From the NCBI RefSeq assembly GCF_018402035.1, contig NZ_JAGYJN010000004.1, positions 248,001 through 312,000 on the forward strand: a stretch of 64,000 bases of DNA, in the 5' to 3' direction. Every line of letters begins with the position of its first letter. Within the stretch, counting starts at the first letter, position 1. This DNA is from Roseicyclus sp. GTDB lineage: Bacteria; Pseudomonadota; Alphaproteobacteria; Rhodobacterales; Rhodobacteraceae. Of the stretch, positions 8,480-64,000 are shown piece by piece. Under the pieces are notes generated by a model, which was not told the DNA's origin, made no database searches, and saw nothing but the letters and a program-made list of their open reading frames with translations. The position numbers were made by a program, and so were the translations under genes.

Positions 8480-8517
8480 AAGCCCCCCTTGGCTTGGCCA
8501 AAGGGGGGCTTAATTTT
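8480..8517 (+). terminator. Rho-independent terminator after Ala-rich gene
   Basis: AAGCCCCCCTTGGC-TTG-GCCAAAGGGGGGCTT followed by AATTTT. Confidence 0.8.
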
Positions 8518-8528
8518 GCGATGTCTTG

Positions 8529-9452: not shown

Positions 9453-9522
9453 GTCATCTCAAGGGCGCGGTCTGGCCGCTACCCCCTCCATAAGCCTTGA
9501 TCTGGATCAGGGAAAGCTTTTG

Positions 9523-9948
9523 TCAGCCTTTCAGCCGCGCCTGATAGTCGCCTGCGCGCCAATCGGCGCGTGCCAACCACTGATCTTCGGGTTGGCGCGC
9601 GGCCATCGCGGGGGTGATTTCCACCTCGTCAAAGCCCGCGCGCCGCGCCATGGCATATTGATCGGCCAGCACATGGCCCGCCGCGCGCAGGCGCCCGCGA
9701 TAGCCCATCGCGCGCAGCCGCCGGGCGATGGTAAAGCCGCGCCCATCGGCAAAGCTGCCAAAACGGATGCGGATCAGCGTGATCCGGTCCAGATGCACGA
9801 CCAAGGCGTCGAGATCGGCCTGTGGCCCAAGATCGAGGGCCAGATGATCCCCGTGCAAATCCGCATCGGGTGGCAAGATCGCCCTGTCCCAATCATCGGT
9901 CGAAAAGCCCGTATCGCGCATGATGATCGCGGCGGCTGTGGTCTGCAT
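9523..9948 (-). CDS. DUF934 family protein
   Basis: IRIRFGSFADGRGFTIARRLRAMGYRGRLRAAGHVLADQYAMARRAGFDEVEI; adjacent to cysHI. Confidence 0.85.
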   Translation of the reverse strand: MQTTAAAIIMRDTGFSTDDWDRAILPPDADLHGDHLALDLGPQADLDALVVHLDRITLIRIRFGSFADGRGFTIARRLRAMGYRGRLRAAGHVLADQYAMARRAGFDEVEITPAMAARQPEDQWLARADWRAGDYQARLKG

Positions 9949-10027
9949 CTATTCACACTCCATCAAGGTTAACGCGCGCGCCCTTCAACTTTGCCGAAAA
10001 TACGCAAACGCAGTCTTTGTTGCCTAG

Positions 10028-10780
10028 TCACGAGGCCTGCCTGATCGGCGCGCGCACGATCCGTCCGTCGACGACATGGATACCGCATTCCTCCTTGGCG
10101 GCACCGCGCCAGCGCCCGGCACGCGGGTCTTCACCCGCTGCCACAGGCGTGGTGCAAGGCGCACAGCCGATGGAGGCATAACCGCGCGCCACAAGCGGGT
10201 GGCGGGGCAGGCGGTTGTTGGTCATATACTCGGCCAAATCCTCGCGCGCCCAATGGGCCAGCGGGTTGATCTTGATGCGCGCCTCGCCCTCGGCCTCGAA
10301 GAAGGCCAGCGCCGCGCGGCTGCCTGATTGAAAGCGTTTGCGCCCGGTGATCCATGCATCGAAAGGGGCGAGCGCATGGGCCAGCGGTTCGGTCTTGCGC
10401 AAGTTGCAGCAGGCGTCGGGGTTCTCACGATGCAGCCCCCCCTCGGGGTCATGGGCGGCAAGCTTGGTGCGGCTGGCGCGGATGACCCGCACATCGCCAA
10501 GCCCCAGATGGGCCGCCACCGCGCGTTGATAGCTGAGCGTTTCGTCAAACAGCATCTCGGTGTCCAAAAACAGCACCGGTGTGTCGCGGTCGATCACGGC
10601 CACCATATGCAACAAGACGACCGACTCTGCCCCAAAGCTTGAGACCATCGCGACCGATCCCGTGTCGGTATCGGCCAGCGCATGTTCCAACACGGCGATG
10701 GCCGAGTGATGGCGGTAGCGGCTGTTGAGCGCCGCCACACGCGTCGCCACACTGCCGAAATGGCTGATCTCAGGCGGCAT
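10028..10780 (-). CDS. cysH: Phosphoadenylyl-/adenylyl-sulfate reductase
   Basis: SSFGAESVVLLHMVA...ACCNLRKTEPL...WITGRKRFQSGSRA...GCAPCTTP...KEECGIH. Confidence 0.93.
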   Translation of the reverse strand: MPPEISHFGSVATRVAALNSRYRHHSAIAVLEHALADTDTGSVAMVSSFGAESVVLLHMVAVIDRDTPVLFLDTEMLFDETLSYQRAVAAHLGLGDVRVIRASRTKLAAHDPEGGLHRENPDACCNLRKTEPLAHALAPFDAWITGRKRFQSGSRAALAFFEAEGEARIKINPLAHWAREDLAEYMTNNRLPRHPLVARGYASIGCAPCTTPVAAGEDPRAGRWRGAAKEECGIHVVDGRIVRAPIRQAS

Positions 10781-12440: not shown

Positions 12441-12739
12441 CAGGCGCGCTCCTGCTTGCCATGGGCGTAGTTGGAGGGGCCGCGGGTGCGAAACACCTCG
12501 CGGAAATGGATCGGCTCGGGGCCTTTGGGGCCAGCCTTGGCATCGGCCAGATAGGCGCCCACCACCTCGTGGCCGCGCGCGGCCGCATCCAGCAGATGCA
12601 GCTCGGCTGTCGCCGCATCGGTGATCAAGAGCGCGCGGTCATGCTGCCGCGTCCATCCGCCATCGGGGGCAAGATAGACAACATCGCCCTCTAACAGCGC
12701 ATTGGCGGTCAGGACTTTCGGCGTAACGGTTGCGGACAT
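12440..12739 (-). CDS. DUF2849 domain-containing protein
   Basis: MSATVTPKVLTANALLEGDVVYLAPDGGWT...PIHFREVFRTRGPSNY; between cysG and cysI. Confidence 0.85.
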   Translation of the reverse strand: MSATVTPKVLTANALLEGDVVYLAPDGGWTRQHDRALLITDAATAELHLLDAAARGHEVVGAYLADAKAGPKGPEPIHFREVFRTRGPSNYAHGKQERA

Positions 12740-14133
12740 TAGGCGAACTCCTCGGACAATTGGGGCAGGGCGGCCTCGGCTGCGCGGGGCGCAAGCCCGT
12801 AAAGCAAGATCACAGGGCCGTTGCAGCCCGCCTCGGCCAGTGCATTGGGCAGGCGGGCAAGGGTCGTGGCGATGATGCGCGCATCTGGGCGGGATGCGTT
12901 TTCGACAGCCGTCACCGGGGTTTGCGGATCGGCCCCGTGCATCATCAGGCGGCCTTGGATGAACCGCGCGCCGCGTTTGCCCATGTAGATCGCGGCCACC
13001 GCGCCGGGGCGGGCAAGCCCGCGCCAATCTTGCTCGGCGAAACCTTGCATGTCATGCCCGGTGATCAACCGCAGCGCGCTATTGCGGTCGCGCTTGGTCA
13101 GGCTTTGGCCGATGCTTGCCGCCGCCGCACTCGCCGCCGTGATGCCCGGCACGACCGACCAATCGATGCCCGCTTGCACCAATGCCGCGATCTCTTCGTC
13201 GAGCCGTCCGAACACCGCTGGATCGCCACCTTTCAGCCGCACCACATGCGCGCCATGGGCCGCATGCTCCACCATCAGCGCGCAGATATCGCCCTGTGAC
13301 ATGGAGGGGCCAAAGCCCTCTTTGCCTGCATCGATGATCAGCGCCTCGCGCCGGGCAAGCTCAAGGATCGCTTGCGGCACCAGCCGGTCATGGATCACCA
13401 CATCGGCCCGGTCGAGCAGGCGACGCGCTTTCAGCGTCAACAGCTCCGGATCGCCGGGGCCAGCGCCCACCAGATCGACCCGTCCGGGTGCGGGGGCTGC
13501 CGCAAGATGGCGTGACAAAAGCGCTGAAAGCGCGGGTTCAAGGCCGCTTTCCCCTTCTTTTTCAATGACCTGCGGCGCGGTGTCGAAATAGAAATCTGCC
13601 CAGAAATCGCGCCGCTTGCGCCCCATCGGCAAAGCCTCGGCCAGTTTGCGAAACCCCTTGCCGACGCGAGCGGCCACGCCCAAGGAGGGGGGCAGCCGCG
13701 CCTCCAGATCGGCCTTGATCGCGCGCGCTAGCACTGGGGCCGCGCCCTCGGTGCCGATGGCGATAGTCACCGGGTCGCGATCGACGATGGCAGGCGTGAT
13801 GAATTGGCTGTCTTCCAGATTATCGACCAGATTGACCAAGGCGCCGTCGGCGCGCGCAAGTTTGGCCACGCGGCGATCCTCGACCGGGTCGTCACTGGCG
13901 GCATAGACCAGCGCCGCGCAAAGCGCGTCACCGGGGCCAAAGGCCCGGCTGATCAGCATGATTTTCCCATCAGCGGCCAAAGCCTGCAGCGCGGGGTCGG
14001 GTGCCTCGGTGATCACGCTCAGGCGCGCCGTGGTCTTGCGCAAGATGCGCAATTTGGCCAAGGCCGTCTCGCCACCGCCTGCGATGACGACACGGCGGCC
14101 TTGCAGGGCCAGAAAGATCGGGAAGTGGTCCAT
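12739..14133 (-). CDS. cysG: Siroheme synthase (uroporphyrin-III C-methyltransferase/dehydrogenase)
   Basis: MDHFPIFLALQGRRVVIAGGGETALAKLRIL...VDLVGAGPGDPELLTLKARRLL...VVRLKGGDPAVFGR. Confidence 0.93.
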   Translation of the reverse strand: MDHFPIFLALQGRRVVIAGGGETALAKLRILRKTTARLSVITEAPDPALQALAADGKIMLISRAFGPGDALCAALVYAASDDPVEDRRVAKLARADGALVNLVDNLEDSQFITPAIVDRDPVTIAIGTEGAAPVLARAIKADLEARLPPSLGVAARVGKGFRKLAEALPMGRKRRDFWADFYFDTAPQVIEKEGESGLEPALSALLSRHLAAAPAPGRVDLVGAGPGDPELLTLKARRLLDRADVVIHDRLVPQAILELARREALIIDAGKEGFGPSMSQGDICALMVEHAAHGAHVVRLKGGDPAVFGRLDEEIAALVQAGIDWSVVPGITAASAAAASIGQSLTKRDRNSALRLITGHDMQGFAEQDWRGLARPGAVAAIYMGKRGARFIQGRLMMHGADPQTPVTAVENASRPDARIIATTLARLPNALAEAGCNGPVILLYGLAPRAAEAALPQLSEEFA

Positions 14134-14274
14134 CGCGCGCTCCGACCAAGATTGGTTTCGCTATATTTAGAAAAATTTCCCAGTATTTGGCAGATACACC
14201 TTGCTGAAAGGGACATATGTTTTTACCAGTGCCGCGCAGATCAGATACCGTTCCGCCGCAAAGGGCCACCAAAG

Positions 14275-14736
14275 ATGACTGTCCAGATCGACGCGCTTGA
14301 CCGGAAAATTCTCGCAGCCCTGCAAGCGGATGCTTCGCGCTCACTCGATGATATCGCGCGCATCGTGGGCTCGTCCAAGACGCCGGTCTGGAACCGGATT
14401 CGCAAGCTGAAAGAGGCGGGCGTGATTGGCCAGCACACGGTCTTGCTCGATGCCGAAAAGCTGGGGTTCGAGGCGTGTTTTTTCGTGCTGATCCGCACCT
14501 CCGAACACGAGGCCGATTGGCAGCACCGTTTCCTCGCCGCGCTCAAAGCCCGCCCCGAGGTGATGGAGGCGCATCGCTTGGCAGGTGAGATTGATTATAT
14601 CCTCAAGGTCCGCGTGGCCAATGCGCGCGCCTATGACGTCTTTTACCAAGCCCTGATCTCGGAGGTGCGGATTTATAACGTGACCGCGCTGCTCTCGATG
14701 GAAGAGATCAAGGCCAGCCCGCTTTTGCCGCTATGA
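14275..14736 (+). CDS. Lrp/AsnC family transcriptional regulator
   Basis: DALDRKILAALQADASRSLDDIARIVGSSKTPVWNRIRKLKEAGVIGQHTVLLDAEKLGF; divergent from cysG. Confidence 0.9.
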   Translation: MTVQIDALDRKILAALQADASRSLDDIARIVGSSKTPVWNRIRKLKEAGVIGQHTVLLDAEKLGFEACFFVLIRTSEHEADWQHRFLAALKARPEVMEAHRLAGEIDYILKVRVANARAYDVFYQALISEVRIYNVTALLSMEEIKASPLLPL

Positions 14737-14767
14737 CCAAGGCATTGGCCCAAGGGGCGGGGTGCGG

Positions 14768-15553
14768 ATGAGCGCGATCTTGCAACAGCATTTGCCAACC
14801 ATCCCATGGTTGGTGCCCGCCCTTGCGCGGCTGCCGGGGGTCTTGCCGCTGAGCATGGCGGATTGGCTGGTGGTCGATGAAGCCTTTGACGGTCAAATGG
14901 CGCTGCGCGATCAGCTTTTGGCGGAACGCCCGGATGCGGTCTATGCGATGACACCGGGGGCCGACGCAGCGGCGGAGGAACTTTTGGCCCTGATCCTTGA
15001 CCATCTAGGGCCGGGATATCAGCGGCAGGGCGATCAGGTGATCCGCCCCGATGGTGTGGCGGTGGCCCTTGATGGGGCGCCGCCCCTGATCACCGCCGCG
15101 CGACTGGTGCAAGAGGATCTGTGCATCCATCAGCCCGGCCCAAATGGTGAGCATGTGCTGACGGCTGCGGTGTTGTGCTTTCCCGCAAGCTGGCGTTTGG
15201 ACGAGAAAATCGGCCGTCCGCTCAGCGCGATCCATGCCCCGGTGGCGGCCTATGACGCACAGATGGCCGCGCGGGTGCAGCGGCTTTTCGATGCGATACG
15301 CCCCGAGCGCCCCTTATGGCGGCAAAACGCGCTGATCTATGCCGACCCCGCGCTGCACCAACCAAGGCGCGAGGCCACTCCGCGCCGCGATGCTCCCGGC
15401 ACGGGCCGCTATTTGCGGTCGGAAAAACAATGCTTTGTGCGGCTGGAGAACACCGACGCGGTGGTGTTTTCGATCCACACTTATCTTGTGCCGCTCACCG
15501 CACTGCCCGCGCAAGCGCGCGCTGGGCTGGCCCAAATCCACAGCGTGCTTTGA
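14768..15553 (+). CDS. DUF3445 family (heme-dependent oxidative N-demethylase-like) protein
   Basis: CFPASWRLDEKIGRPLSAIHAPVAAYD...RYLRSEKQCFVRLENTDAVVFSIHTYLV. Confidence 0.8.
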   Translation: MSAILQQHLPTIPWLVPALARLPGVLPLSMADWLVVDEAFDGQMALRDQLLAERPDAVYAMTPGADAAAEELLALILDHLGPGYQRQGDQVIRPDGVAVALDGAPPLITAARLVQEDLCIHQPGPNGEHVLTAAVLCFPASWRLDEKIGRPLSAIHAPVAAYDAQMAARVQRLFDAIRPERPLWRQNALIYADPALHQPRREATPRRDAPGTGRYLRSEKQCFVRLENTDAVVFSIHTYLVPLTALPAQARAGLAQIHSVL

Positions 15554-15557
15554 CCGC

Positions 15558-16628
15558 CTATCCCCGGAAATGCTTGGAGAGCTTTAGCCCTTGGCCTTGA
15601 TAGTTCGAGGCGATGGTGGTGCCGTAAAGCGTGCGCGGCGCATCGGCCATGCGTTCATAGACCAGCCGTCCCACCACCTGCCCATGTTCCAAGACAAAGG
15701 GCGCTTCGTGACAGCGCACCTCAAGCACGCCGCGTGCAGGCACGCCATGGCCAAAGCCGGGGTCGAAAAACCCCGCGTAATGCACGCGAAACTCACCCAC
15801 CATGGCCAGATAGGGTGACATTTCGGCGGCGCAGTCGGGCGGGATCGTCACCGCCTCGCGGCTGACGAGAATATAAAAGGCACCCGGGTCAAGGATGATG
15901 CGCCCATCTTCGCCGCGCACCTCTTCCCAGAAATCCGCGATCTCATGCGCGCCGATCTGGGTCAGGTCGATGACGCCTGTATGCGGCTTGGCGCGGTAGC
16001 CCACGATGCCCTTGGCCGTGGGTGTCAGATCGACGGAAAAGCCCAAACCCTCGTCGATGACGGCCACACCATCGACCAGCGGTGTCTCAGCGTGGCGCGC
16101 GGCGAGTTCGGCGTCTGACAAGACCGCTTGGCCGCGCCGAAAGCGGATTTGGTTTAGCCGCAGCCCCGGCGCCACCTTGACCGAGAAGGAGCGCGGGCAA
16201 ATCTCGGCATAAAGCGGGCCTGTGTAGCCTGCGGGGATGCGGTCAAACTCCGTGCCGCCATCCGCGATCACCCGCGTCAGGCAATCGACGCGACCCGTGG
16301 AGCTTTTGGCATTGCACACCGCCGTCACATCATCGGGGAGCGCCAGCCCCTCCATCAAGGGCACGACATAGACACAGCCCTTTTCCAGCACGGCCCCTTG
16401 GGTCAGGTCCATCCGGTGCATCTCGAATTCCGCGATGCGGTCGGCCACAGACCGTCCAGCCCCCGCAAGGAACGAGGCGCGCACGCGGTAGGCGATGGTC
16501 CCCAAGCGTAGATCAAGGCTGGCCGGTTGCACCTGTCCCGCATCGGGGATGTCGCAACGGATGGCCCCGCCTGCGATCATCGCCTCAATCGCGGTATCGG
16601 GCAAAACCCCTTGGCGTTTATCTGTCAT
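15558..16628 (-). CDS. dcd: 2'-deoxycytidine 5'-triphosphate deaminase (long DCD-like form)
   Basis: MTDKRQGVLPDTAIEAMI...QPASLDLRLGTIAYRVRASFL...NAKSSTGRVDCLTRVIADG. Confidence 0.85.
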   Translation of the reverse strand: MTDKRQGVLPDTAIEAMIAGGAIRCDIPDAGQVQPASLDLRLGTIAYRVRASFLAGAGRSVADRIAEFEMHRMDLTQGAVLEKGCVYVVPLMEGLALPDDVTAVCNAKSSTGRVDCLTRVIADGGTEFDRIPAGYTGPLYAEICPRSFSVKVAPGLRLNQIRFRRGQAVLSDAELAARHAETPLVDGVAVIDEGLGFSVDLTPTAKGIVGYRAKPHTGVIDLTQIGAHEIADFWEEVRGEDGRIILDPGAFYILVSREAVTIPPDCAAEMSPYLAMVGEFRVHYAGFFDPGFGHGVPARGVLEVRCHEAPFVLEHGQVVGRLVYERMADAPRTLYGTTIASNYQGQGLKLSKHFRG

Positions 16629-51845: not shown

Positions 51846-53600
51846 TTACACCAAAACCGATCCCTTGGCGTCGATCACACCCTTGGTATCGGCCTCGCCC
51901 AAGAGCATTTCGTTATGCGCCTTGCCCGATGGGATCATGGGAAAGCAGTTCTCGTGCTTTTCGACCAAGCAATCGAAAATAACCGGCCCGTCATAGTCGA
52001 GCATTTCCATGATCGCATCGTCGAGATCCTTGGGATCTTTGCACAAGATACCCTTGGCACCAAAGGCCTCGGCCAGCTTGACGAAATCGGGCAGCGCCTC
52101 GGACCAGCTATGGCTGTAGCGCTCACCATGCAGCAATTCTTGCCACTGGCGCACCATCCCTAGACGTTCATTGTTGAGGATGAATTGCTTGACGGGCAGG
52201 CGATATTGAATGGCTGTGCCCATTTCTTGCATGTTCATCAGCCAAGATGCCTCGCCCGCGACATTGATCACCAGCGCGTCGGGATGGGCCACCTGCACCC
52301 CGATGGAGGCAGGGGTGCCGTAACCCATCGTGCCAAGCCCGCCTGAGGTCATCCAGCGGTTGGGGTCTTCGAACCCAAGGAATTGGGCAGCCCACATCTG
52401 GTGTTGGCCCACTTCAGTGCAGATGTAGCGGTCGCGCCCAAGGGTCAGCGCCTCGAGGCGTTCAAGCGCGTATTGCGGTTTGATGGTGGTGGTCGAATTG
52501 GTGTAGCGCAGGCATTTGACCGCGCGCCATTCCTCGATCTGGTCCCACCATTTCTTGACCGCGACCGCCTTGGTCTTGGCCCCGCGTGCCTTCCAGACGC
52601 GCAGCACCTCCTCCAGAACATGGGTCACATCGCCGATGATCGGGAAATCGGCGTGGATCACCTTGTTAATCGACGAAGGGTCGATATCGACATGCGCCTT
52701 AAGGCTGCCCGGGCTGAAATCGGCAATGCGCCCGGTGATCCGGTCATCGAAACGCGCCCCGATGTTGATCATCAGATCGCAGCCATGCATCGCAAGATTG
52801 GCCTCGTAAAGCCCGTGCATGCCCAGCATGCCCAGCCAGTTCTTGCCCGAGGCCGGGTAGCAGCCCAAGCCCATCAAGGTGGAGGTGATGGGGAAATCGG
52901 TCGCCGCCACCAATTCGCGCAGAATTTCGCTGGCGCGGGGGCCGGAATTGATCACGCCGCCGCCAGTGTAGAAAACCGGACGTTCGGCATTCTCCATCGC
53001 TTCGACCAAAGCCTCGATCATTACCGGATCGCCGATCAGGCGTGGCTGGTAATGCGCAGTGCGCGCTTGCGGTTTTTCGACATAGGTGCCGGTTGCGAAT
53101 TGCACATCCTTGGGAATGTCGACCAGCACGGGGCCGGGGCGGCCATGGGTGGCGATGTGAAAGGCCTGATGGATCGTATCGGCCAGCTTGTCGGTCTCTT
53201 TGACCAGCCAGTTCATCTTGGTGCAGGGCCGCGTGATGCCGACGGTATCGGCCTCTTGAAAGGCGTCCGAGCCGATCATGAAGGTCGGCACCTGACCCGT
53301 CAGCACCACCAAAGGGATCGAATCCATCAAGGCATCGACCAGACCCGTGACCGCATTGGTCGCACCGGGGCCAGAGGTGACAAGCACAACGCCGGGCTTG
53401 CCGGTCGAACGTGCATAGCCTTCGGCGGCGTGGACGGCACCTTGTTCATGGCGCACGAGGATGTGCTGGATGCCGTTTTGCTGGAAAATCTCGTCATAAA
53501 TCGGCAGGACAGCGCCGCCGGGATAGCCGAATACGACATCAACGCCCTGATCCTTCAGCGCCTCGACCACCATTTTCGCTCCGGTCATCTGCCGTGTCAT
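51846..53600 (-). CDS. ilvI: Acetolactate synthase large subunit
   Basis: MTGAKMVVEALKDQGVDVVFGYPGGAVLPIYDEIFQQNGIQHILVRHEQGAVHAAEGYARSTGKPGVVLVTSGPGATNAVTG. Confidence 0.97.
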   Translation of the reverse strand: MTRQMTGAKMVVEALKDQGVDVVFGYPGGAVLPIYDEIFQQNGIQHILVRHEQGAVHAAEGYARSTGKPGVVLVTSGPGATNAVTGLVDALMDSIPLVVLTGQVPTFMIGSDAFQEADTVGITRPCTKMNWLVKETDKLADTIHQAFHIATHGRPGPVLVDIPKDVQFATGTYVEKPQARTAHYQPRLIGDPVMIEALVEAMENAERPVFYTGGGVINSGPRASEILRELVAATDFPITSTLMGLGCYPASGKNWLGMLGMHGLYEANLAMHGCDLMINIGARFDDRITGRIADFSPGSLKAHVDIDPSSINKVIHADFPIIGDVTHVLEEVLRVWKARGAKTKAVAVKKWWDQIEEWRAVKCLRYTNSTTTIKPQYALERLEALTLGRDRYICTEVGQHQMWAAQFLGFEDPNRWMTSGGLGTMGYGTPASIGVQVAHPDALVINVAGEASWLMNMQEMGTAIQYRLPVKQFILNNERLGMVRQWQELLHGERYSHSWSEALPDFVKLAEAFGAKGILCKDPKDLDDAIMEMLDYDGPVIFDCLVEKHENCFPMIPSGKAHNEMLLGEADTKGVIDAKGSVLV

Positions 53601-53663
53601 CGACGTCGTCCTTCTGTTTTACGCGTTGTTTCTTGTTCATGCCGCGGTGGTGAAAGTACTGGC

Positions 53664-53695
53664 AAAAAAAAGCCCCCGGCGGGTTCTCCGAGGGC
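53664..53695 (-). terminator. Terminator in ilvI 5' leader (putative attenuator)
   Basis: Minus strand GCCCTCGG-AGAACCCG-CCGGGGGC-TTTTTTT, 64 nt upstream of the ilvI start codon. Confidence 0.7.
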
Positions 53696-54214
53696 GCATG
53701 GTCTACCTATAAGGTTGTCGTCACCGACCCATGCGCATTTGCCCTACGATATCTACGAAGCAGTCCATGACATGCCCCCCGCGGTGAAATTGTTGCATGA
53801 CACTAGGAACGCCGCGTTGCGGCGTCAACAGCCAAATTACGAAAATGTCGCCAGAACGCGCGGCTGCGCAACGAATCGAAACTTGTTGACGAAATGAAAT
53901 AATATCACTGCGCGGGCATTCGGCCACAGGGTTTGCAACCATGGGATGAAATGGGCCCCCAGCGTCAGGGGAACGAGGTCAGTAGCAGGCGACGCAAGTC
54001 GAACTTTTCTGCGTGCGATGCTTAACAGTTAAGCGTTTTTCCCCGTTAGGGACGATTTTGGTAAGAGATTTTTACAAAAATCGGAAGTTGAGTGCGAAAA
54101 CTTGTTTGCTGATGGGTTTTGCTTCGCTAGGGTGGCAAGACTTGTGGTCTTTGCCACTGTCGCCGCGATCCGAGGGGGGTCGTGGCCAACTCCATACTAC
54201 GGGGAGGATACCGA

Positions 54215-55300
54215 ATGGATCGTCGTTCTTTTCTGAGAACGTCCGCACTTGGCGGCACCGCCGCCGCTGCCGCCACGCTGGCCGCACCGGCTTATGCACA
54301 GGGCAATCGCACGCTGACACTTGTCACCTCGGTGCCTGATGGGTTTGCGGTGTTTGACGACGCGGCACAGCTCGCAATCACCTACATCACTGCCATGACC
54401 GATGGGCAGTTGAGCTTCAACAAGATGCCCGCCGGCAGCTTGGTGGGCGCGTTCGAAGTGTTCGACGCCGTTTCGTCCGGACAGGCCGACGTTTATCACT
54501 CGGCAGAATACTATTTCCTCAATCAGCATCCCGCTTTTGCATTCTTCACCGCAGTGCCCTTCGGCATGACGGCGCAGGAGATGGCAAACTGGTATTATCG
54601 CCGGGGCGGTCAGGAACTGCACGACAATCTGTCGTCCTTGTTCGGCCTCAAGCCGCTGATGTGCGGACAAACGGCGATGCAGCCCGGCGGCTGGTTCAAC
54701 AAAGAAATCAACTCTGTTGATGATTTGCAGGGGCTGCGGTTCCGTATGCCGGGTCAGGGCGGTCAGGTTTTGGGTCGTCTGGGTGCTTCGGTACAAAACA
54801 TTCCCGGTGGTGAAATCTATCAGGCACTTGCCTCGAACCAAATCGACGGTGCGGAGTGGATTGGTCCCTACGCAGACGAGCGGATGGGCTTCCAGGAAGT
54901 GACCAAGACCTACTACGCCGCTGGTTTCCACGAGCCGGGCTCGACCCTGTCCTTGGTCTTCAACCAGCAGATCTGGGAATCACTGACGCCGACGCAGCAG
55001 ACCATTTGTAAGGTCGCCTGCGAGGCTGCACACGCACAGAACACTGCTCTGTCGCTTGCTGAAAATGGTGCAGCGCTTGCCCGCTTGCAGTCTGTCGGCG
55101 TGCAGGTTCGCCAGTTCCCCGCTGACGTCTGGGATGCCTTCGGCCGTGCGTCGCTGGAAGTCCGGAATGAGAACATGGGCGACCCGATCTATGCCGAGAT
55201 CGCCAACAGCGTCTTTGCGTCCATTACGGAATCCTCGGGCTGGTACGAGATTGCAGATGGCGAATTCATGCGCCAGCGCAACCGTGTGAACGCGGGCTGA
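54215..55300 (+). CDS. dctP: TRAP transporter solute-binding protein, DctP family (Tat-type signal)
   Basis: MDRRSFLRTSALGGTAAAAATLAAPAYAQ; KMPAGSLVGAFEVFDAVSSGQADVYHSAEYYF...GLRFRMPGQGGQVLGRLGASVQNIPGGEIYQAL. Confidence 0.93.
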   Translation: MDRRSFLRTSALGGTAAAAATLAAPAYAQGNRTLTLVTSVPDGFAVFDDAAQLAITYITAMTDGQLSFNKMPAGSLVGAFEVFDAVSSGQADVYHSAEYYFLNQHPAFAFFTAVPFGMTAQEMANWYYRRGGQELHDNLSSLFGLKPLMCGQTAMQPGGWFNKEINSVDDLQGLRFRMPGQGGQVLGRLGASVQNIPGGEIYQALASNQIDGAEWIGPYADERMGFQEVTKTYYAAGFHEPGSTLSLVFNQQIWESLTPTQQTICKVACEAAHAQNTALSLAENGAALARLQSVGVQVRQFPADVWDAFGRASLEVRNENMGDPIYAEIANSVFASITESSGWYEIADGEFMRQRNRVNAG

Positions 55301-55320
55301 TCTAGCCAAGACCAACAGTG

Positions 55321-55351
55321 TCCTGCCCAGCACAGATTGTGCTGGGCAGGA
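55321..55351 (+). other. Strong intercistronic stem-loop between dctP and dctQ
   Basis: TCCTGCCCAGCACA-GAT-TGTGCTGGGCAGGA, 14-bp perfect stem, no U-tract directly after. Confidence 0.85.
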
Positions 55352-55417
55352 TGCACCTTTTCGCGATCCGAGACTTGACGCGCCCCAAAGTGGGCTTGCG
55401 TGCCGGGGGACCACCGC

Positions 55418-56317
55418 ATGATCGATTTCATCTTGTGGGCGCTGCAAAACATCGCAATGGCGCCTTACAATCTGTTCCTTGCCATCACCAACCCGGGCAG
55501 TTGGCTGAATTGGGCCGATCCCCAATCGGTGATGCGCTTCATCTATTACGGCGCCTCGGTTGAACTGTTTTTTGTCGCTATCACCATCTTTATCTTGATC
55601 ACCGCGCTGGGCATGGCCTGGAACCGCGAGATCTTGTGGTGGGGTGTGCGCATTCTTGAGAGTGTGGCCAACACGGTCGGCCGCACCGCCGCTTGGGCGG
55701 GCCTTTTGATGGTGTTCGTCCAAGTGATTATCGTGTTCTTGCAGCGGATTTTCCGGGTTGCCCAGATCCAGCTCGGGCCATTTGGCACCGCATTTGTGCA
55801 AGACCTGAGCTGGTGGGCTGAAAGCCTGAAATTCCACAATGCCTTGGTCGTCTGCCTCTGCGTCTCCTACACTTTTGTGCAGGGCGGCCATGTGCGCGTT
55901 GACCTTGTGTATTCGGCGGTAAAATTCCGCACCAAGAAGATGATCGACATGTTCGGTTGCTTGTTCTTCATGCTGCCGATGGTCACGATCACATATCTTT
56001 ATTCTTGGTTCTTCATGTGGCGCCACCTGATGACGCCAACGGTCACTTCGACCAGCGATATTGATCGCATGCTGATGCAGTCGCGCATCTTCAAATGGAA
56101 CGTCGAGACCATCGGGTTTAGCCCAAATGGCTTTAACGCTTATTTCTTGTTCAAAGTCTTGATCGTGCTGTTCTGCGTTTTGGTCTTTTTGCAGGCGATT
56201 GCCTTCTTCTGGCGCTCTTATCTGGAGTGGCGCGAGGGCGAAGACAGTGCCGGCAAATACCTCGACCGGGACAAGTTGGATGATGAAGGCGAGGCTTTGC
56301 CACACGCCGCCCACTAA
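55418..56317 (+). CDS. dctQ: TRAP transporter small permease (extended, ~299 aa)
   Basis: TM-rich; ILESVANTVGRTAAWAGLLMVFVQVIIVFLQRIF...GGHVRVDLVYSAVKFRTKKMID. Confidence 0.88.
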   Translation: MIDFILWALQNIAMAPYNLFLAITNPGSWLNWADPQSVMRFIYYGASVELFFVAITIFILITALGMAWNREILWWGVRILESVANTVGRTAAWAGLLMVFVQVIIVFLQRIFRVAQIQLGPFGTAFVQDLSWWAESLKFHNALVVCLCVSYTFVQGGHVRVDLVYSAVKFRTKKMIDMFGCLFFMLPMVTITYLYSWFFMWRHLMTPTVTSTSDIDRMLMQSRIFKWNVETIGFSPNGFNAYFLFKVLIVLFCVLVFLQAIAFFWRSYLEWREGEDSAGKYLDRDKLDDEGEALPHAAH

Positions 56318-56383
56318 CAAAGCTCCGGTAATTCGGGACAAAGACACGTAAGCGCGCGCGCTTAGCCAAGGGGACGAGAGAGC

Positions 56384-58735
56384 ATGCTTTTCGGATTGGA
56401 TGGGGTCGAGATCGGTCTGGTGATCGTCTTCCTCACGCTCTTCGCTGGGATCATGACCGGTTTTCCGGTGGCCTTTGCCATCGGCGGTGCCGGGATGATC
56501 TCATTTGCCATCATCGCGGCACTCGATAGTGCGGGGTTGCTGATCCACGAAGCCATCGACAGCGGTTCGGCGGAATACGCAGCGCTTGTGGCCGAAGGGG
56601 TAATCAGGGAGTCGATCTCGGTCTTCCGCTACCCCGATTTGCCAACGGTCGAGGTGGCGCTGTTTCCGGGTGGTTGGGAACAGGCGATGGAGCGCAATCT
56701 GTCCTTCATGGTTAACCGCATGAACGAGCGCGTGATCGCTGGTCAATCCATCGAGACGCTTCTGGCCGTGTTGATGTTCGTGATGATGGGCATCGTGCTG
56801 GAGCGCTCGAAAATCGCCGAAGATCTTTTGACCACCATGGCGCGGGTGTTTGGCCCGCTGCCCGGCGGCTTGGCCGTGTCGATCGTGATCGTGGGTGCCT
56901 TTTTGGCGGCCTCGACCGGGATCGTGGGCGCGACCGTGGTAACGATGGGCTTGCTTGCGCTGCCCACCATGCTGCGCAACAACTATTCGCCAGAACTGGC
57001 AACCGGCGTCATCGCGGCCTCGGGGACGCTGGGCCAGATTATCCCGCCGTCCATCGTGATCGTTTTGCTCGGCACGCTGGTGGGCGATCTTTACGCTACC
57101 GGCCAAGAGACGCGCGCCCAGCTTGCGGGCTGTACCGACGCGCTGACCTATCTGGCCAAGCCCGCGGTTTTGTCGGTCGGCACGCTCTTCCAAGCGGCTC
57201 TGTTGCCTGGTCTGTTCCTTGCGCTTCTCTACGGGATCTACGCCTTTGGCTTTGCACTTTGGAAACCGGCAAGCGCGCCGCCTGTTGCGGTCAGCGGTAG
57301 CTCTGGCGAGCCTGTGACGCGCAACGAGGCGCTGACATGGTACCTCGCGGCACCTGTGGCCTTGATCTTGGCCGTTGTGCTGGGTGCGGGCGGCGGTGTG
57401 ATCGGTAGCCAAGCGATCTCGGTCTCGGACTATGCCGAACGCGAGAATGAAGCGATGCTGCGCACCGCTGTCTCGGAGCAGTGCCAAGCCTCGATGATCG
57501 ATCTGCATGGTCAAGAGCGGTGGGATGCCTCTGTCGCGCAGCGCGCGGCAATGGCCGCAGCCGGGGATACCGGTGAAGTTGTGCTTTTGACCGACGAAGA
57601 GCGCGCAGCCGCGCTTGATAACGCGTTGGCTAATGCCGCGCCGATCGGCAGTGGCGTGGCGACGATCTTTACCATGTTGGCGCTTTTGTTGATCCTCGCG
57701 CGTGGTGTCTCACCCTCGTCCAACCCTGCGCCGCTGATTGCGGGCGGTGTGGGTGTGGTGCTGGCGCTGATTTGCGACATCATGTTCATCGGTCCGTTGA
57801 CCGGCAACGGCGCAACCTTCCTGATCTTGGCCATCCCGTTCTTCATCGCGCTTTACGGGGCACGCGTGGCGGTGATGCGCCTGTCGCAAAACGAGTTGTT
57901 GCGCGTGGTCTTCCCACCGCTCGTGCTGATCGTGGCAGTGCTGGGCTCGATCTTGGGCGGGATCACCAATCCGACGCCTGCTGCCGCCCTCGGCGCGGCG
58001 GGTGCGATCATGCTGGCGGCATATCGCAAGCTGAAAGAAGAGAATGGCAAATCCAAGATCATCATCTGGGCCAGCTTTGCGCTGGTGATCATGATCTTGT
58101 TCGGCGTGAATTTCGATCTGCGCGTCACGCGCGCAGTCGTGCCGGTGGAAGATTGGATCGCCTTTTTCATCGCCCAGATCGCCTATCACTTTGCCTTCTT
58201 CGGCCTTCTGTTCAGCGCTTGGGTGCTGTTCCGCACCAATATTCTCAGCCCCGTGGTGCGCGAGACGGCCAAGGTGACATCGATGGTGTTCACCATCCTG
58301 ATCGGCTCGCAATTGCTGAACCTTGTGTTGATCTCCTTTGGGGGCGAGCATCACATTCAGCAATACCTGCGCAGCTTCGACAACGAGCTGGTCGTGTTCT
58401 TTGTGGTGATGGCGATCTTGTTTATCTTGGGGTTCGTGCTCGATTTCCTCGAGATCATCTACATCGTGATCCCCATCGTGGGGCCGGTGATCTATGGCGG
58501 TACGCTTGACCCGGCATGGGTGACGATCATGATCGCGATCAACTTGCAGACCTCGTTCCTGACGCCGCCCTTTGGATTTGCCCTGTTCTACCTGCGTGGC
58601 GTGGCGCCAAGCAGCGTGACGACAGGCCATATCTATCGTGGGGTCATCCCCTTCGTGGGGATCCAAGTCTTGTGCTTGGTCTTGCTTTACATGTTCCCGG
58701 GGATTGTCACGATCCTGCCGCGTTTGCTGGGGTAG
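56384..58735 (+). CDS. dctM: TRAP transporter large permease, unusually long (783 aa)
   Basis: GFPVAFAIGGAGMISFA...FVMMGIVLERSKIAEDLLTTMARVFGPLPGGLAVSIVIVGAFLAASTGIVGATVVTMGLLALPTMLRNNYSPELATGVIAASGTLGQIIPPSIVIVLLG...FLDFLEIIYIVIPIVGPV...QTSFLTPPFGFALFYLRG. Confidence 0.93.
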   Translation: MLFGLDGVEIGLVIVFLTLFAGIMTGFPVAFAIGGAGMISFAIIAALDSAGLLIHEAIDSGSAEYAALVAEGVIRESISVFRYPDLPTVEVALFPGGWEQAMERNLSFMVNRMNERVIAGQSIETLLAVLMFVMMGIVLERSKIAEDLLTTMARVFGPLPGGLAVSIVIVGAFLAASTGIVGATVVTMGLLALPTMLRNNYSPELATGVIAASGTLGQIIPPSIVIVLLGTLVGDLYATGQETRAQLAGCTDALTYLAKPAVLSVGTLFQAALLPGLFLALLYGIYAFGFALWKPASAPPVAVSGSSGEPVTRNEALTWYLAAPVALILAVVLGAGGGVIGSQAISVSDYAERENEAMLRTAVSEQCQASMIDLHGQERWDASVAQRAAMAAAGDTGEVVLLTDEERAAALDNALANAAPIGSGVATIFTMLALLLILARGVSPSSNPAPLIAGGVGVVLALICDIMFIGPLTGNGATFLILAIPFFIALYGARVAVMRLSQNELLRVVFPPLVLIVAVLGSILGGITNPTPAAALGAAGAIMLAAYRKLKEENGKSKIIIWASFALVIMILFGVNFDLRVTRAVVPVEDWIAFFIAQIAYHFAFFGLLFSAWVLFRTNILSPVVRETAKVTSMVFTILIGSQLLNLVLISFGGEHHIQQYLRSFDNELVVFFVVMAILFILGFVLDFLEIIYIVIPIVGPVIYGGTLDPAWVTIMIAINLQTSFLTPPFGFALFYLRGVAPSSVTTGHIYRGVIPFVGIQVLCLVLLYMFPGIVTILPRLLG

Positions 58736-58760
58736 GGGAGCAAGCCATATTGTGATGACG

Positions 58761-58790
58761 ACGGGGGGCCATGGCCCCCCGTTTTCATTT
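58761..58790 (+). terminator. Rho-independent terminator of TRAP operon
   Basis: Perfect palindrome ACGGGGGGCCATGGCCCCCCGT followed by TTTCATTT. Confidence 0.85.
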
Positions 58791-58873
58791 CCCTGCATGG
58801 TGATGATGCGTGTTTCTCATCACAAGGCAGGGGGGCTGTCTGCCCCCCTCTGGCCGCGGGACGCGGCCATTCA

Positions 58874-58906
58874 CCCCCCGAGGATATTTATGAAACGAAG
58901 AAGATG
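58874..58906 (+). repeat. Dispersed intergenic motif (copy 5: ccccccgaggatatttatgaaacgaagaagatg)
   Basis: Matches copies at 5205, 33248 and 49745. Confidence 0.8.
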
Positions 58907-58919
58907 CAGGGGTCGCGAT

Positions 58920-59035
58920 TAGGGCGTGTTGCGTTTGATCAGTCCGCGATATTCACCGCAACAGGCGAGGCAGCGTTTGCAAGGCATAACGCGTTCGCCT
59001 GTTGCGGTGAATGCGATAGAACGCGACACGCTCTA
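58920..59035. mobile_element. MITE-like element with terminal inverted repeats flanked by TA, long internal hairpin
   Basis: TA-GGGCGTGTTGCGTT...AACGCGACACGCTC-TA; internal 18-bp inverted repeat ATTCACCGCAACAGGCGA/TCGCCTGTTGCGGTGAAT; ~92% identical half-copy at 8529-8597. Confidence 0.75.
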
Positions 59036-59851
59036 GTCATCCGCGCGCATGTCGGGCAGGGTGATCTGGGCCACCTGCTGCGCGATGGGTTCCACTGACA
59101 AGGGGTGGACATGGTTGGAATAGCTGGTTGGATCGCCCAAAGGCTTCCACTGGCTATCCGCATAGACCTCGATCGCGGGAAAGCGGGCCTTGTAGCCCAT
59201 CTTGGTCGAGCCGGGCACCCAATAGCCCAGATAGACATAAGGCAGCCCCGCCTCGCGCGCGAGGGTCACATGGTCGAGGATCACATGGGTGCCAAGGCTA
59301 TCGGCACCCCGGTCAGGATCGAAGAAGGAATAGACGAGGCTAAGTCCGTCATCGAGAATATCGGTCAAGCATACGGCGACCAGCGTCTCATCGGGGTCGC
59401 GATACTCGATCACGCGCGAACGCACGGGTGTTTCTTCGATCATCGCGGCAAATTCGAAGACATCCATATCGGCCATGCCACCATCGGCGTGGCGGGCATC
59501 AAGATAGCGGCGAAACAACTCATATTGCGCCTCGGTCGCCCAAGCTGAGCGTGAGATGCGCGAAAGCCCTGCATTGCGGCGCAAGATGCGGCGGTGCGGG
59601 CGCAGTGGCGTGAAATCGGCCACGCGAATGCGTGCCGACAGGCATGCCGCACAATCCGCGCAAGATGGCCGGTAGAGCACGTTTTGCGACCTGCGGAAGC
59701 CCTGCTTGGACAAGGCATTGTTAAGCTTTTCCGCCTGTTCACCTTGCAATGCGGTAAACAGCTTGCGTTCCCGACGCCCATCGAGATACGGGCACTTTTG
59801 CGGTGCCGTGACATAGAATTGTGTCGCAATGGGCAGTGTGTGGCGCATCAA
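59033..59851 (-). CDS. bpt: Arginyl/leucyl-tRNA--protein transferase (Bpt/Ate family)
   Basis: [16 protein letters not shown]...[23 protein letters not shown]...[54 protein letters not shown]. Confidence 0.93.
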
Positions 59852-59948
59852 CGAAAAGCGGCCGGGGCCGGTCCAAACCTCTGATCTTGAAATTGCACCA
59901 GCGGCCGCGGCAGTCGCAACAGGTTTTTTTGGGTGAAGTAGTGAATAC

Positions 59949-60395
59949 TCAGCGCGGACGGTTCATTGCGACCGTGCCAAGCAGCAGATCATGCAAGCCT
60001 TGGTGGCGCGCACCGATGGCCATCATCAAGATCGAGATCACCTGCAACACCATAAAGCCCATCGCAACCATGAACAAAAGCGTATGCAAAACGGCCTCGC
60101 CACGTGACAGCCGCGCAGCGGTCGGGCCACGCAGCTCGATTGCCATCAAACGCATGCCATAGGTCGCCGAGCCCGTGGCAATCGTCGCGCTGCGATAGAT
60201 CAGATCGACCGCGATATAGACCAAGGGCCAGACCCACCACAGCAAGCTGAGCGTCAAAAGGCCCAGCGTGAATGTGATCGCCGTCACGATGATGACATCA
60301 ACAAGCCAAGCAATCAGGCGCTTGGCCGGGACACCATCATAGAACAGATGGTCATGATCGGGATCGGGCAGGGCGTTGGGCATGGTCACGGACAT
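59949..60395 (-). CDS. RDD family membrane protein
   Basis: [31 protein letters not shown]...[22 protein letters not shown]. Confidence 0.88.
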
Positions 60396-60423
60396 GGCGA
60401 GATTCCATCGGTTTTGAAAGCAA

Positions 60424-60469
60424 AAACCACCATCCCACGCGCGCTTTTGGTCGCGCGGGATGGTGGTTG
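60424..60469. terminator. Long hairpin between DUF2852 gene and RDD gene
   Basis: AACCACCATCCC...GGGATGGTGGTT with inner CGCGCG stem. Confidence 0.65.
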
Positions 60470-60471
60470 AT

Positions 60472-60903
60472 TTAGGTGGCGACAGTGTCGGGCGCTGTTG
60501 CCGCCTTACGCGCATCGGCGCGGTCTTGCAGGAATTGATCGAATTCCGCCTTGTCCTTGGCTTCGCGTAGACGGTGCAAGAAGGCCTCAAATGCGTCTTG
60601 CTCCTCTTGCAGGCGGCGCAGCGTATCGGCCTTGTAGGCATCGAAGGCGGCATTGCCTGTGCTGCGGTTGACGGTTTGGCCAAACCGGGCGTCACGGCGT
60701 TTGGTGCAAGATGTGCTGAACATGCGTTTACTCCAGATCATATAGGCAAGAAGCGCGAGGCCCGCAGGCCAGAACAAGATGAAGGCAAGTACCATGACGG
60801 CGATCCATGCGCCCTTGCCCTTGTCGTCGAGCCATGCCTCGCTGCGCGAGAACCAGTTCCCACCCTCGGATCGGGGAGGGGGCGCGGTCAGTGTCGATGT
60901 CAT
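60472..60903 (-). CDS. DUF2852 domain-containing membrane protein
   Basis: AWLDDKGKGAWIAVMVLAFILFWPAGLALLAYMIWSKRMF...RLQEEQDAFEAFLHRLREAKDKAEFDQFL. Confidence 0.85.
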   Translation of the reverse strand: MTSTLTAPPPRSEGGNWFSRSEAWLDDKGKGAWIAVMVLAFILFWPAGLALLAYMIWSKRMFSTSCTKRRDARFGQTVNRSTGNAAFDAYKADTLRRLQEEQDAFEAFLHRLREAKDKAEFDQFLQDRADARKAATAPDTVAT

Positions 60904-61074
60904 CGGGTGGTCCTTTCGCTCAAGATGTTAATGTTAATCACATTCACAAAAATGGGCAGGCTGTGGCGAAATGCAAGAGCGCAGCACGAAAAAAGTGAAA
61001 CGACTTAACATAGGCGCGGGCATCACGCTTTTACCTTGCGCTTGCGCATGGCCTTGGGCTATCCCGCGCCGCAC

Positions 61075-61164
61075 GGACAGTTGGCCGAGTGGTCGAAGGC
61101 GCACGCCTGGAAAGTGTGTAGGCGGGGAACCGTCTCGAGGGTTCGAATCCCTCACTGTCCGCCA
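61075..61164 (+). tRNA. tRNA-Ser(GGA), CCA encoded
   Basis: GGACAGTTGGCCGAGTGGTCGAAGGCGCACGCCTGGAAAGTGTGTAGGCGGGGAACCGTCTCGAGGGTTCGAATCCCTCACTGTCCGCCA; long variable arm; anticodon GGA. Confidence 0.96.
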
Positions 61165-61332
61165 TTAAACCTTCTTCAAGCACATGAGATCATTATCCTT
61201 CATCTGGAAACGCGTTTCTATGTGTTTGTAGTATGGTCATTTTCTCGCCAAATTTGCTTCAGCGGGTATCAACGGATATCATTCAAGGTCACATCTGATG
61301 TGGGTCCGGGTGTGGGCCTGGTGGAGCTTCGC

Positions 61333-62571
61333 ATGCTGACAGAGACGCGCGCGAAAAGAATCAAGACCAGCGACAAGCCATTGGCTGATGGCACGGTCGT
61401 GGGCCTTCGATTGCTGCCGGGCACTATGAACGGGCGAGGTAAATGGCAGCTACGGTTCACTTCCCCTGAGACTGGTGCGCGGCGCGATATGGGCTTTGGC
61501 GTGTATCCGGACGTATCCATCTTATCCGCGCGTGAGCGGGCTTCAGAGGCTCGGAAACAGATTGCCGCGGGTATCGACCCGATCGAAGAGGCCGAGCGAC
61601 AGCAGGACGAGGCTGCGTGCGCAGTGCGAATTCCGACCTTCGAAGAGGCTGCCAAGTCGGTCTTCGAGGAACATAAAGCAAGTTGGTCGAATGGTAAGCA
61701 TGTTGACCAGTGGATAAACACACTGACGACCTATGCCTTCCCCATGATTGGTCAGCGCAATGTCGACACCCTCAAGCCCGCAGACTTCGCGAATGTCATT
61801 AGGCCTATCTGGTCTTCGAGGGCTGAGACCGCTCGGCGTGTGAAGCAACGTTGTCATGCAGTAATGAAGTGGTGTTGGGGCAAGGAATATGTGCAGGGCA
61901 ACCCGGTCGATATGGTGGATATGCTCTTGCCCAAGCAAAGCGCTTCGGCGCGGGTTTCAATACATCATCCAGCGATGCCATGGCGAATTTTACCACAGTT
62001 CATGCAAGAGATCGTGCGCGCCGGTGACGATGTCACCCGACACCTATTGGAGTTTACAATCCTGACGGCGGCCCGCTCGGGTGAGGCGCGTGGTATGGTG
62101 TGGAACGAGGTCGATCTCTCGACTGCCACGTGGATTGTGCCTGCGCACCGGATGAAGGCCAAGGCGGTACACCGCGTCCCACTGTCCAGTCGAGCGGTTG
62201 AGCTCTTGGAAAAGCGGCGTACGCTGGCGAAACATCCTAAGTTGGTTTTCCCCTCTCCGAGAGGGGCTGTGTTGACCGATATGGCGCTGACGAAATTCCT
62301 GCGGACCCACAAGGCGGTGAGTGATGTGCCGGGGCGGGTTGCCACAGCCCATGGGTTTCGGTCGTCGTTCAGAGATTGGGCGAGTGAAACGGGTGTGGCG
62401 CGCGATGTCGCTGAGCGCGCGCTTGCGCACACGATCCGCAACGCGGTTGAGGCGGCGTATCACCGGACGGACCTGCTGGAACAACGGCGCAGCGTCATGG
62501 AGGTATGGGCAGCGCATGTTACGGGGGCGGCAGCTGGAGAGGATGTGGTGGCGTTGGTTGGGAGGGCTTGA
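61333..62571 (+). CDS. int: P4-type tyrosine recombinase/integrase
   Basis: LTETRAKRIKTSDKPLADG N-terminal arm-binding domain; catalytic LTAARSGEARGM, HGFRSSFRDWA, AYHRTDLLEQR. Confidence 0.95.
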   Translation: MLTETRAKRIKTSDKPLADGTVVGLRLLPGTMNGRGKWQLRFTSPETGARRDMGFGVYPDVSILSARERASEARKQIAAGIDPIEEAERQQDEAACAVRIPTFEEAAKSVFEEHKASWSNGKHVDQWINTLTTYAFPMIGQRNVDTLKPADFANVIRPIWSSRAETARRVKQRCHAVMKWCWGKEYVQGNPVDMVDMLLPKQSASARVSIHHPAMPWRILPQFMQEIVRAGDDVTRHLLEFTILTAARSGEARGMVWNEVDLSTATWIVPAHRMKAKAVHRVPLSSRAVELLEKRRTLAKHPKLVFPSPRGAVLTDMALTKFLRTHKAVSDVPGRVATAHGFRSSFRDWASETGVARDVAERALAHTIRNAVEAAYHRTDLLEQRRSVMEVWAAHVTGAAAGEDVVALVGRA

Positions 62572-62573
62572 GC

Positions 62574-62978
62574 ATGTACAAAACAAAAGCAGAACGGAAG
62601 GCCAGAGAGCGTGAACTTGCAGCTGAGCGGGCGGCATGGAACCGGCAATTCAGCGTTGAGATGCCTGAGCACGTACTGGGCATGATGGGCTCGCCGTCGG
62701 AATTGCGGGACGCGCTGTCTGACGCAGGCACGGCCCATGCTTGGAATGGGGTTAGGTTTGATAAGGCAACCGGCGAGCCCTTTCGAAACGCCATGCCCAG
62801 TGATCTGGGGGCAAACGTCGAGCGGCAGGAGGCAGCGCAGCTAACGGCGGAGGAACTGCGGCGCAAGTACTCTGCACTCTGGCACGTCCGTGGAGGTGCC
62901 AAGCAGATAGCTGCCGCTGAAGGGATCGGCCTATCAACAGTCTATGCGCACATGAAGCGGCTGCGAATGCTGAAGTAA
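62574..62978 (+). CDS. Hypothetical protein with C-terminal HTH-like segment
   Basis: ORF 2 nt after int stop; RRKYSALWHVRGGAKQIAAAEGIGLSTVYAHMKRLRML. Confidence 0.7.
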   Translation: MYKTKAERKARERELAAERAAWNRQFSVEMPEHVLGMMGSPSELRDALSDAGTAHAWNGVRFDKATGEPFRNAMPSDLGANVERQEAAQLTAEELRRKYSALWHVRGGAKQIAAAEGIGLSTVYAHMKRLRMLK

Positions 62979-63052
62979 GTTTCTAGGGCCACACGGTGCC
63001 CGCCCTAAGGCTGTGCACAAGTGGTGTCATCCAAACGCAACTGGAGGGCACC

Positions 63053-63268
63053 ATGGCCATACCGCAAAGACTTGAATCACTTTCCAGCATGCCTGCCGAG
63101 GCACTGGTTTCTGCAAAAGAACTGTCGATCCTCTCAGGGCGAAGCCGCGCATCGCTATGGCGCGATGTCCTGGCTGGCCGGTTGCCCCAGCCCATTGCTA
63201 TCGGACCACAGGCGCGCCGTTGGCGGGTTGAGGATGTCCGTGCCTACCTGAAAGGGGGGGCGGCATGA
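63053..63268 (+). CDS. AlpA-like HTH transcriptional regulator/excisionase
   Basis: LVSAKELSILSGRSRASLWRDVLAGRLPQPIAIGPQARRWRVEDVRAYLKGGAA. Confidence 0.88.
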   Translation: MAIPQRLESLSSMPAEALVSAKELSILSGRSRASLWRDVLAGRLPQPIAIGPQARRWRVEDVRAYLKGGAA

Positions 63269-64000
63269 GCCAGACAGTTCCACCTGAAGCGCAAGCTCGG
63301 GAGTTTCTCAAGATGATCGACCCTGAAGCAAATAGCTTCTGCTTCCGTGTGCTGCCTGACAACGAGGCTAGCCCCGTCTGGGAGAAAAACTTCAATGGAA
63401 AATTTGGGTTGATATTGCCGCAGTTACAGCGGGCAAACCGCGCAGGTGGCGGTGCCTTTGTCGTGGTCAATGAAGGCGGGCAGAAAAAGAGCGAAATAAC
63501 TCAGGTGAGGGCGGTGTTCGCAGATACCGACGGTGCACCGGTAGAACCCATAATAGACGCGCTGAAGCCTCACATGGTCGTAGAAAGCTCACCGGGGAAC
63601 TATCATGTCTATTGGTTTGTTGCAGACTTCCCTTTGGCTCAGTTCAAACCAGTGCAGTTGGCTATCGCGACACAATTCGGGACGGACGAAAGCGTTAACG
63701 ACCTATCGCGGGTGATGCGGATGCCGGGATTTTATCACAACAAGAACGAACCGTTTCTGTCGAGCATAGTTGCGTTGAATTCGGGGTTGCCACGTTACAA
63801 ACTGGACGAAGTTGTCACGGGATTAGACCTCCAGCTCACGCCACCTGCCGAAGATCATCAGTCGTCGGAATGGAATGGGACTGGCAAAACTGATGCGCCA
63901 CCAATTGCAGAAGTCGAGAAGGCGCTGACATATCTGAACCCTTTTGTGCGCCGCGGTAGATGGGTACGAAACATTCTGGCCCTTGCTCATGATTACGGAG
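63265..64000 (+). CDS. RepB-family primase-like replication protein (runs off window end)
   Basis: Own translation from ATG 63265: MSQTVPPEAQAREFLKMIDPEANSFCFRVL...VRAVFADTDGAP...MVVESSPGNYHVYWFV...TDESVNDLSRVMRMPGFYHNKNEPF; not in ORF track because no stop in window. Confidence 0.75.
   Translation, partial: MSQTVPPEAQAREFLKMIDPEANSFCFRVLPDNEASPVWEKNFNGKFGLILPQLQRANRAGGGAFVVVNEGGQKKSEITQVRAVFADTDGAPVEPIIDALKPHMVVESSPGNYHVYWFVADFPLAQFKPVQLAIATQFGTDESVNDLSRVMRMPGFYHNKNEPFLSSIVALNSGLPRYKLDEVVTGLDLQLTPPAEDHQSSEWNGTGKTDAPPIAEVEKALTYLNPFVRRGRWVRNILALAHDYG

Follow-up and report, generated by a model that had tools for sequence, protein, structure and literature searches.

A 14-bp direct repeat, the same sequence as TGGCGGTGAGGGGG, is present in the islands OI-43, OI-48, and SRL-PAI at serW/serX, and excision between the repeats has been observed (PMC3064760). 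VPI-2 of Vibrio cholerae is a tRNA-Ser island as well, and its excision requires an AlpA-type factor (PMC3014918). Among the phage satellites, PICI carry int, alpA, and pri-rep (PMC6092414). PICMI carry int, a small gene that overlaps or is contiguous with int, alpA, and a primase, and they have no capsid-remodelling genes (PMC10803314).

The locus described here is from Roseicyclus sp. (G000). The draft genome is 3.03 Mb in 89 contigs and is 92% complete. The window, the whole stretch of DNA that was analysed, is 64,000 nucleotides long (G000:C34:248001-312000). The contig reaches 319,046, so that 7 kb can be read past the window (L003 is C34:308001-319046, and a window position is the L003 position plus 60000). 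The rightward extension proposed in the initial annotation brought in a helicase, small genes, an HGGxSTG protein, a DUF4331 and cytochrome c pair, and an IS1380 remnant. Taken together, the locus is very probably the left end (attL) of a genomic island that is 9.5 kb or longer and was inserted at the 3' end of tRNA-Ser(GGA) by site-specific recombination, with the mechanism proposed below. The features are as follows.

61075-61164, plus strand: intact tRNA-Ser(GGA) (ARAGORN), the integration target, on the attL side
61151-61164, plus strand: predicted att core CTCACTGTCCGCCA, the last 14 nt of the tRNA
61299-61320, plus strand: two TGTGGG repeats, 12 nt apart, just 5' of int; probable integrase arm-type sites
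61333-62571, plus strand: tyrosine integrase (int), 412 aa, of the SRL-PAI/OI-48-type lineage, ATG at 61333, with Arm-DNA-bind_3, Phage_int_M, and Phage_integrase (Pfam)
62574-62978, plus strand: 134-aa protein with a weak C-terminal HTH (HTH_23), ATG 2 nt past the int stop
63053-63268, plus strand: AlpA-like small DNA-binding protein, probable recombination directionality factor (PHROG 66, excisionase, E 9e-6)
63265-64071 (the window ends at 64000), plus strand: RepB-type primase, RepB_primase and PriCT_2 (Pfam)
64061-65359 (L003:4061-5359), plus strand: AAA_25 helicase, in the next frame and overlapping the primase
L003:5651-5911: 86-aa small protein
L003:5941-6258: 105-aa small protein
L003:6259-6483: 74-aa membrane-like protein
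L003:6558-6914, minus strand: HGGxSTG protein (NF041373)
L003:7115-7330: recombinase-like fragment ORF
L003:7447-8733, minus strand: DUF4331 protein
L003:8737-10626, minus strand: di-haem cytochrome c peroxidase, 629 aa, with a RoxA-like motif (NF040606, E 6e-155)
L003:10651-11046: end (remnant) of a transposase, inside which the contig stops; we take it to be IS1380-type, and it is 82-87% identical to copies in the related genomes G032 and G505

An intact tRNA-Ser followed by a P4-type integrase reading away from it had already been described, and both were recovered by ARAGORN and by the Pfam domains. The tight packing of the same-strand genes was also confirmed, in the 2 nt between int and the next ATG and in the ATGA by which the AlpA-like gene and the primase (ATG at 63265) overlap. 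A third point, the lower GC, holds in part. The element has a GC of 0.57 and the first 52 kb of the window 0.63. However, GC is almost as low in the 9 kb on the left side of the tRNA, so it does not mark the boundary of the element. Positions 52000-61074 have a GC of 0.58, though the 2 kb nearest to the tRNA is conserved host DNA.

The distribution of the genes among relatives points to a variable site. On the left, 2.1 kb of flank up to and including the tRNA is kept at 71-84% identity in 12 of 12 congeners, and the homology ends at or near the 3' end of tRNA-Ser(GGA). The right flanks, readable in nine congeners, are of about six unrelated types. In none of these nine are the integrase, HTH, AlpA, primase, helicase, or small genes found at the site, which is not what is expected of a fixed region with the same genes in all relatives, the alternative that the initial annotation had named. 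The only DNA match to the right side of the Roseicyclus locus is an IS1380 piece in G007. The helicase was found in one of 397 genomes of the family, G000 itself, and has no homologue in phage or plasmid records. The cytochrome was likewise found only in G000 among the 61 genomes searched, and is absent from the 60 relatives at E 1e-80. The conserved left flank, the varied right flanks, and the sporadic genes indicate a variable insertion site with accessory genes. A clean empty site (attB) could not be defined in the relatives, as their right flanks are so varied. A partial 52% helicase match in a Rhodospirillales MAG (L064) was uninformative, as that contig otherwise carries unrelated genes.

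Repeats of the tRNA 3' end were found in related elements. The core predicted here is identical to the 14-nt stretch that flanks the G075 element as an exact direct repeat at its own tRNA-Ser(GGA). In both G075 and G271, the last 14 nt of tRNA-Ser are repeated exactly beside int, each time with the sequence of the element's own isoacceptor. In G638, two 14-nt cores lie 14.4 kb apart, and the IMG/VR contig L167 has the 14-nt core opposite its tRNA-Ser(CGA). Shuffled loci give about zero such repeats. A pair of TGTGGG repeats, 12-13 nt apart and at most 60 nt from int, is present in eight of nine members of the lineage; 0.05-0.35 single hexamers are expected per 250 nt.

No second copy of the core that could serve as attR was found in the draft of the organism itself (26-mer with 3 mismatches, 16-mer with 2, and 14-mer with 1). 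A match on contig C1 was rejected as another tRNA-Ser and one on C56 as tRNA-Ser(GCU). A match on C12 was also rejected, since it has one mismatch, is at about chance level, and has no tRNA context. The contig breaks at an IS sequence, and the missing attR is therefore read as missing data and not as a refutation. With the att repeats of the relatives, the conserved left flank, and the sporadic genes, the earlier proposal of a tRNA-Ser-anchored integrative element is well supported. We read the locus as a genuine integrative island, targeted to tRNA-Ser and sporadic in its distribution, whose early module is of the satellite type.

Related elements are in G505, G032, and G638, whose integrases are 86, 78, and 54% identical to the one in Roseicyclus. 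The element in G505 (L092) is the closest and is complete, with 11,426 bp (11.4 kb) at tRNA-Ser(UGA) (5108-5197), and the 3' half of the tRNA is repeated perfectly over 47 nt, at 5151-5197 and 16577-16623. It can serve as the reference element for the lineage. The element in G032 (L048) is at tRNA-Ser(GCU). The gap between tRNA and int is 168, 168, and 167 nt in the three elements at three tRNA-Ser genes (GGA, GCU, and UGA). The AlpA-like protein has homologues at the same position, 68, 48, and 41% identical in G505, G032, and G638. The Roseicyclus protein has no Pfam match of its own, and its label is based on the PHROG 66 match and on these homologues, which have weak or near-threshold matches to Phage_AlpA/HTH_17. 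The 105-aa protein also has homologues, with 68% identity in G505 by local BLAST (72% by alignment) and 36% over 61 aa in G032 (E 1e-14 in a one-sequence comparison). No homologue of the 134-aa HTH gene was found in G505, G032, or G638. A search of the PDB gave nothing useful for the AlpA-like protein, the 105-aa gene, or the helicase; a Tor inhibition protein was matched at only E 0.5.

The replication genes of G000, G505, and G032 differ in kind. G505 has a 794-aa PriCT_1/DUF3987 protein and G032 a VapE-type 841-aa primase. In these three, int, AlpA, and the small gene are kept, and the primases between them are unrelated. Closely related integrases thus keep AlpA and a small partner gene as the primase is replaced wholesale. 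The cargo differs as well. In G505 it includes an FkbM methyltransferase and an IS630-like gene, and an IS1380 piece lies about 0.3 kb short of the intact attR; in G032 there are trypsin-like and SH3 genes.

In an integrase tree built by a quick method, G000, G505, and G032 form one clade (support 100), nested in a supported clade with other islands and an E. coli integrase. The latter (pB39_V, locus L084) is 53% identical to that of Roseicyclus, adjoins ycdU, and has TGGCGGTGAGGGGG upstream of int. The core is direct relative to int in G000, G505, and G032, and inverted in G075, G271, G638, and L167. Because the three lie among islands with an inverted core, one change of orientation within the lineage is the simplest reading.

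The excision of OI-43, OI-48, and SRL-PAI and the AlpA-type factor of VPI-2 are the basis, by analogy, for the mechanism proposed here. The integrase would act on a core of about 14 nt, made up of the final bases of the tRNA, and recombine the copy on a circular form with that on the chromosome; the tRNA would stay intact. The twin TGTGGG repeats 5' of int are likely bound by the integrase as arm sites, and the AlpA-like protein is most likely the excisionase. From their domains, the RepB-type primase and the AAA_25 helicase would most likely prime and unwind the excised circle for replication. The element is probably moved by a helper, since the readable part has no transfer or capsid genes. 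The helper could be a phage, as for PICI/PICMI-type satellites, or a conjugative element, as for the relative that bears a relaxase.

The cargo can be partly inferred from the genes at the right end. The DUF4331 protein and the di-haem cytochrome c peroxidase both have signal-like N termini and are probably exported, and the visible cargo is probably a periplasmic redox function rather than defence. A literature search on this pair found no paper. The locus had been regarded as the likeliest place for a new system, which is unsupported so far, as the visible cargo is this redox pair and PADLOC gave no match among ten proteins of the element. Two members of the lineage whose replication genes differ both have HGGxSTG-domain proteins (NF041373), here at L003:6558-6914 (minus strand) and at L093:7312-7620.

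Other elements were seen in the relatives. G638 (L098, G638:C10:356001-375900) has a 14.4-kb element at 1513-15938 with int, AlpA, a VapE-type primase, an HGGxSTG protein, a LysE-like exporter, and an RND-like efflux pump; a second integrase-like gene at its far core is an apparent tandem insertion. G075 (L080, G075:C12:456501-476400) has a 15.2-kb element at about 957-16147 with 14-nt cores, tRNA-Ser(GGA), an integrase, and a MobA/VirD2-type relaxase. Other proteins of this element resemble what we take, from reading the sequences, to be a type I-E CRISPR-Cas set with a repeat-like array. G271 (L076, G271:C42:1-16500) has a 13-kb element at tRNA-Ser(GCU) that lies between 14-nt cores and carries a type I restriction system (HsdR and HsdM). 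In G200 (L074, G200:C2:1001-20800, at 1-5390), a KAP P-loop protein (PADLOC PDC-S49) lies beside a SIR2-domain Dsr1-like protein, 3' of the same integrase lineage. The congener G003 (L055, G003:C165:10900-16247) has another island right of the same tRNA-Ser(GGA) site, with genes that by eye are presumably DUF5131-like (phage Gp37/68-type) and three-Cys-motif partner protein-like. Since type I restriction genes, a CRISPR-Cas-like set, and genes of the Dsr1/SIR2 type are carried by its members, the lineage is a useful anchor in the search for defence islands.

A less likely but possible reading is that the element is a dead remnant, which no longer moves and has lost its attR. PriCT_2 is split between the primase and helicase frames, and its match grows from profile position 46 to 62 when the frames are joined. 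The replication gene may thus be broken. The junction could be a split whose two parts are translationally coupled, or there could be a frameshift, in the gene or the assembly. The recombinase-fragment ORF, the IS1380 at the contig end, and the lack of an attR in the draft would also fit a remnant. However, the reading frames of int, the HTH gene, AlpA, the primase, and the helicase are each uninterrupted. The primase stop (L003:4069-4071) overlaps the start of the helicase (ATG at 4061), and GGAGG, a good ribosome-binding site, is just 5' of that ATG. The complete element in G505 likewise has its IS1380 piece beside an intact attR.

The satellite-like early module had been noted before, and the gene content and order agree with it. 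It is nevertheless unlikely that the element is a true phage satellite, in which phage infection would induce AlpA and the island would excise, replicate by its own primase-helicase, and be packaged in helper capsids, either through a DNA motif (PICMI-like) or with capsid genes past the contig end (as in a capsid-forming PICI). The order of int, a small gene touching int, alpA, and primase fits PICMI and PICI (PMC10803314, PMC6092414), L167 has int, alpA, and RepB/AAA_25 followed by a capsid-to-TerL set, and G505 bears the PICMI model genes int, HTH_17/AlpA, and DUF3987. However, the visible 9.9 kb has no gene for packaging, capsid, portal, terminase, or helper interference, and psu, delta, and sid are also absent from this part of an element that is cut by the contig end. 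No close relative was found in IMG/VR scans with the helicase, integrase, and primase or in phage records with the helicase. The integrase groups with bacterial islands and not with capsid-carrying contigs, and a minimal make-up is not what the cargo-rich relatives show.

It is also improbable that the locus is an integrative mobilizable element that conjugation would move, with a relaxase or oriT past the contig end. G075 shares the integrase lineage and the tRNA-Ser(GGA) isoacceptor, and its relaxase lies between the att cores; yet the two integrases share just 44% identity, and the G075 core is in inverted orientation to int. The visible 9.9 kb in Roseicyclus has no relaxase, coupling protein, or T4SS, and no relaxase was recognised by inspection among the ORFs of the complete G505 element. 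It is more doubtful again that G000, G505, and G032 are an unrecognised alphaproteobacterial family of tRNA-Ser satellites, with one integration and excision chassis (int, AlpA, and the small gene after the primase) and an exchanged whole replication module (RepB and AAA_25, DUF3987, or VapE), that travel in phage particles without capsid genes of their own.

The preferred reading, an island at tRNA-Ser(GGA), can be compared with the known systems. P4-like satellites have an alpha-type primase (PF03288), which the Roseicyclus element does not have; it has RepB_primase with PriCT_2 and a separate AAA_25 helicase instead. L167, which came from an IMG/VR scan with the integrase alignment, is closer. 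We take it to be a capsid-forming PICI. It shares the tRNA-Ser site (CGA), the 14-nt core, and the order of int (43% identical), alpA, and RepB primase/AAA_25, and the primase part of its fused RepB-AAA_25 protein is 39% identical. After these genes come HK97 capsid, S78 protease, portal, HNH, and TerL, all within 10.7 kb, a layout that is that of a capsid-forming PICI (family name from PMC11389934). Nine further IMG/VR contigs with related integrases have most of this capsid set, none of which is in the visible part of the Roseicyclus element. The primase and helicase are fused in L167 and separate in Roseicyclus, and the integrases are in different clades.

PICMI of the Vibrionaceae also have int, a small gene next to it, alpA, and a primase, and no capsid genes, as in the visible part here. 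Their site is fis and their primase is DUF3987/DUF5906, whereas tRNA-Ser and RepB/AAA_25 are found in Roseicyclus, in a larger element with cargo and an alphaproteobacterial host. The full PICMI gene set of int, AlpA, and a DUF3987/DUF5906 primase is found in G505 and not in G000. VPI-2, too, lies at a tRNA-Ser and has a tyrosine integrase together with an AlpA-type recombination directionality factor (PMC3014918), but it is much larger (57 kb) and forms a non-replicative circle.

SRL-PAI, OI-43, and OI-48 share a 53% identical integrase in one supported clade, the tRNA-Ser 3' end as target, the 14-bp core, and an AlpA family gene. The E. coli type and most relatives have int at the far end, with the core in inverted orientation to it, and the cargo is unrelated to that of Roseicyclus. 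In contrast, G000, G505, and G032 have int directly 3' of the intact tRNA and reading away from it. The lineage of integrases that has been studied in islands of E. coli and Shigella is now extended into an alphaproteobacterial family.
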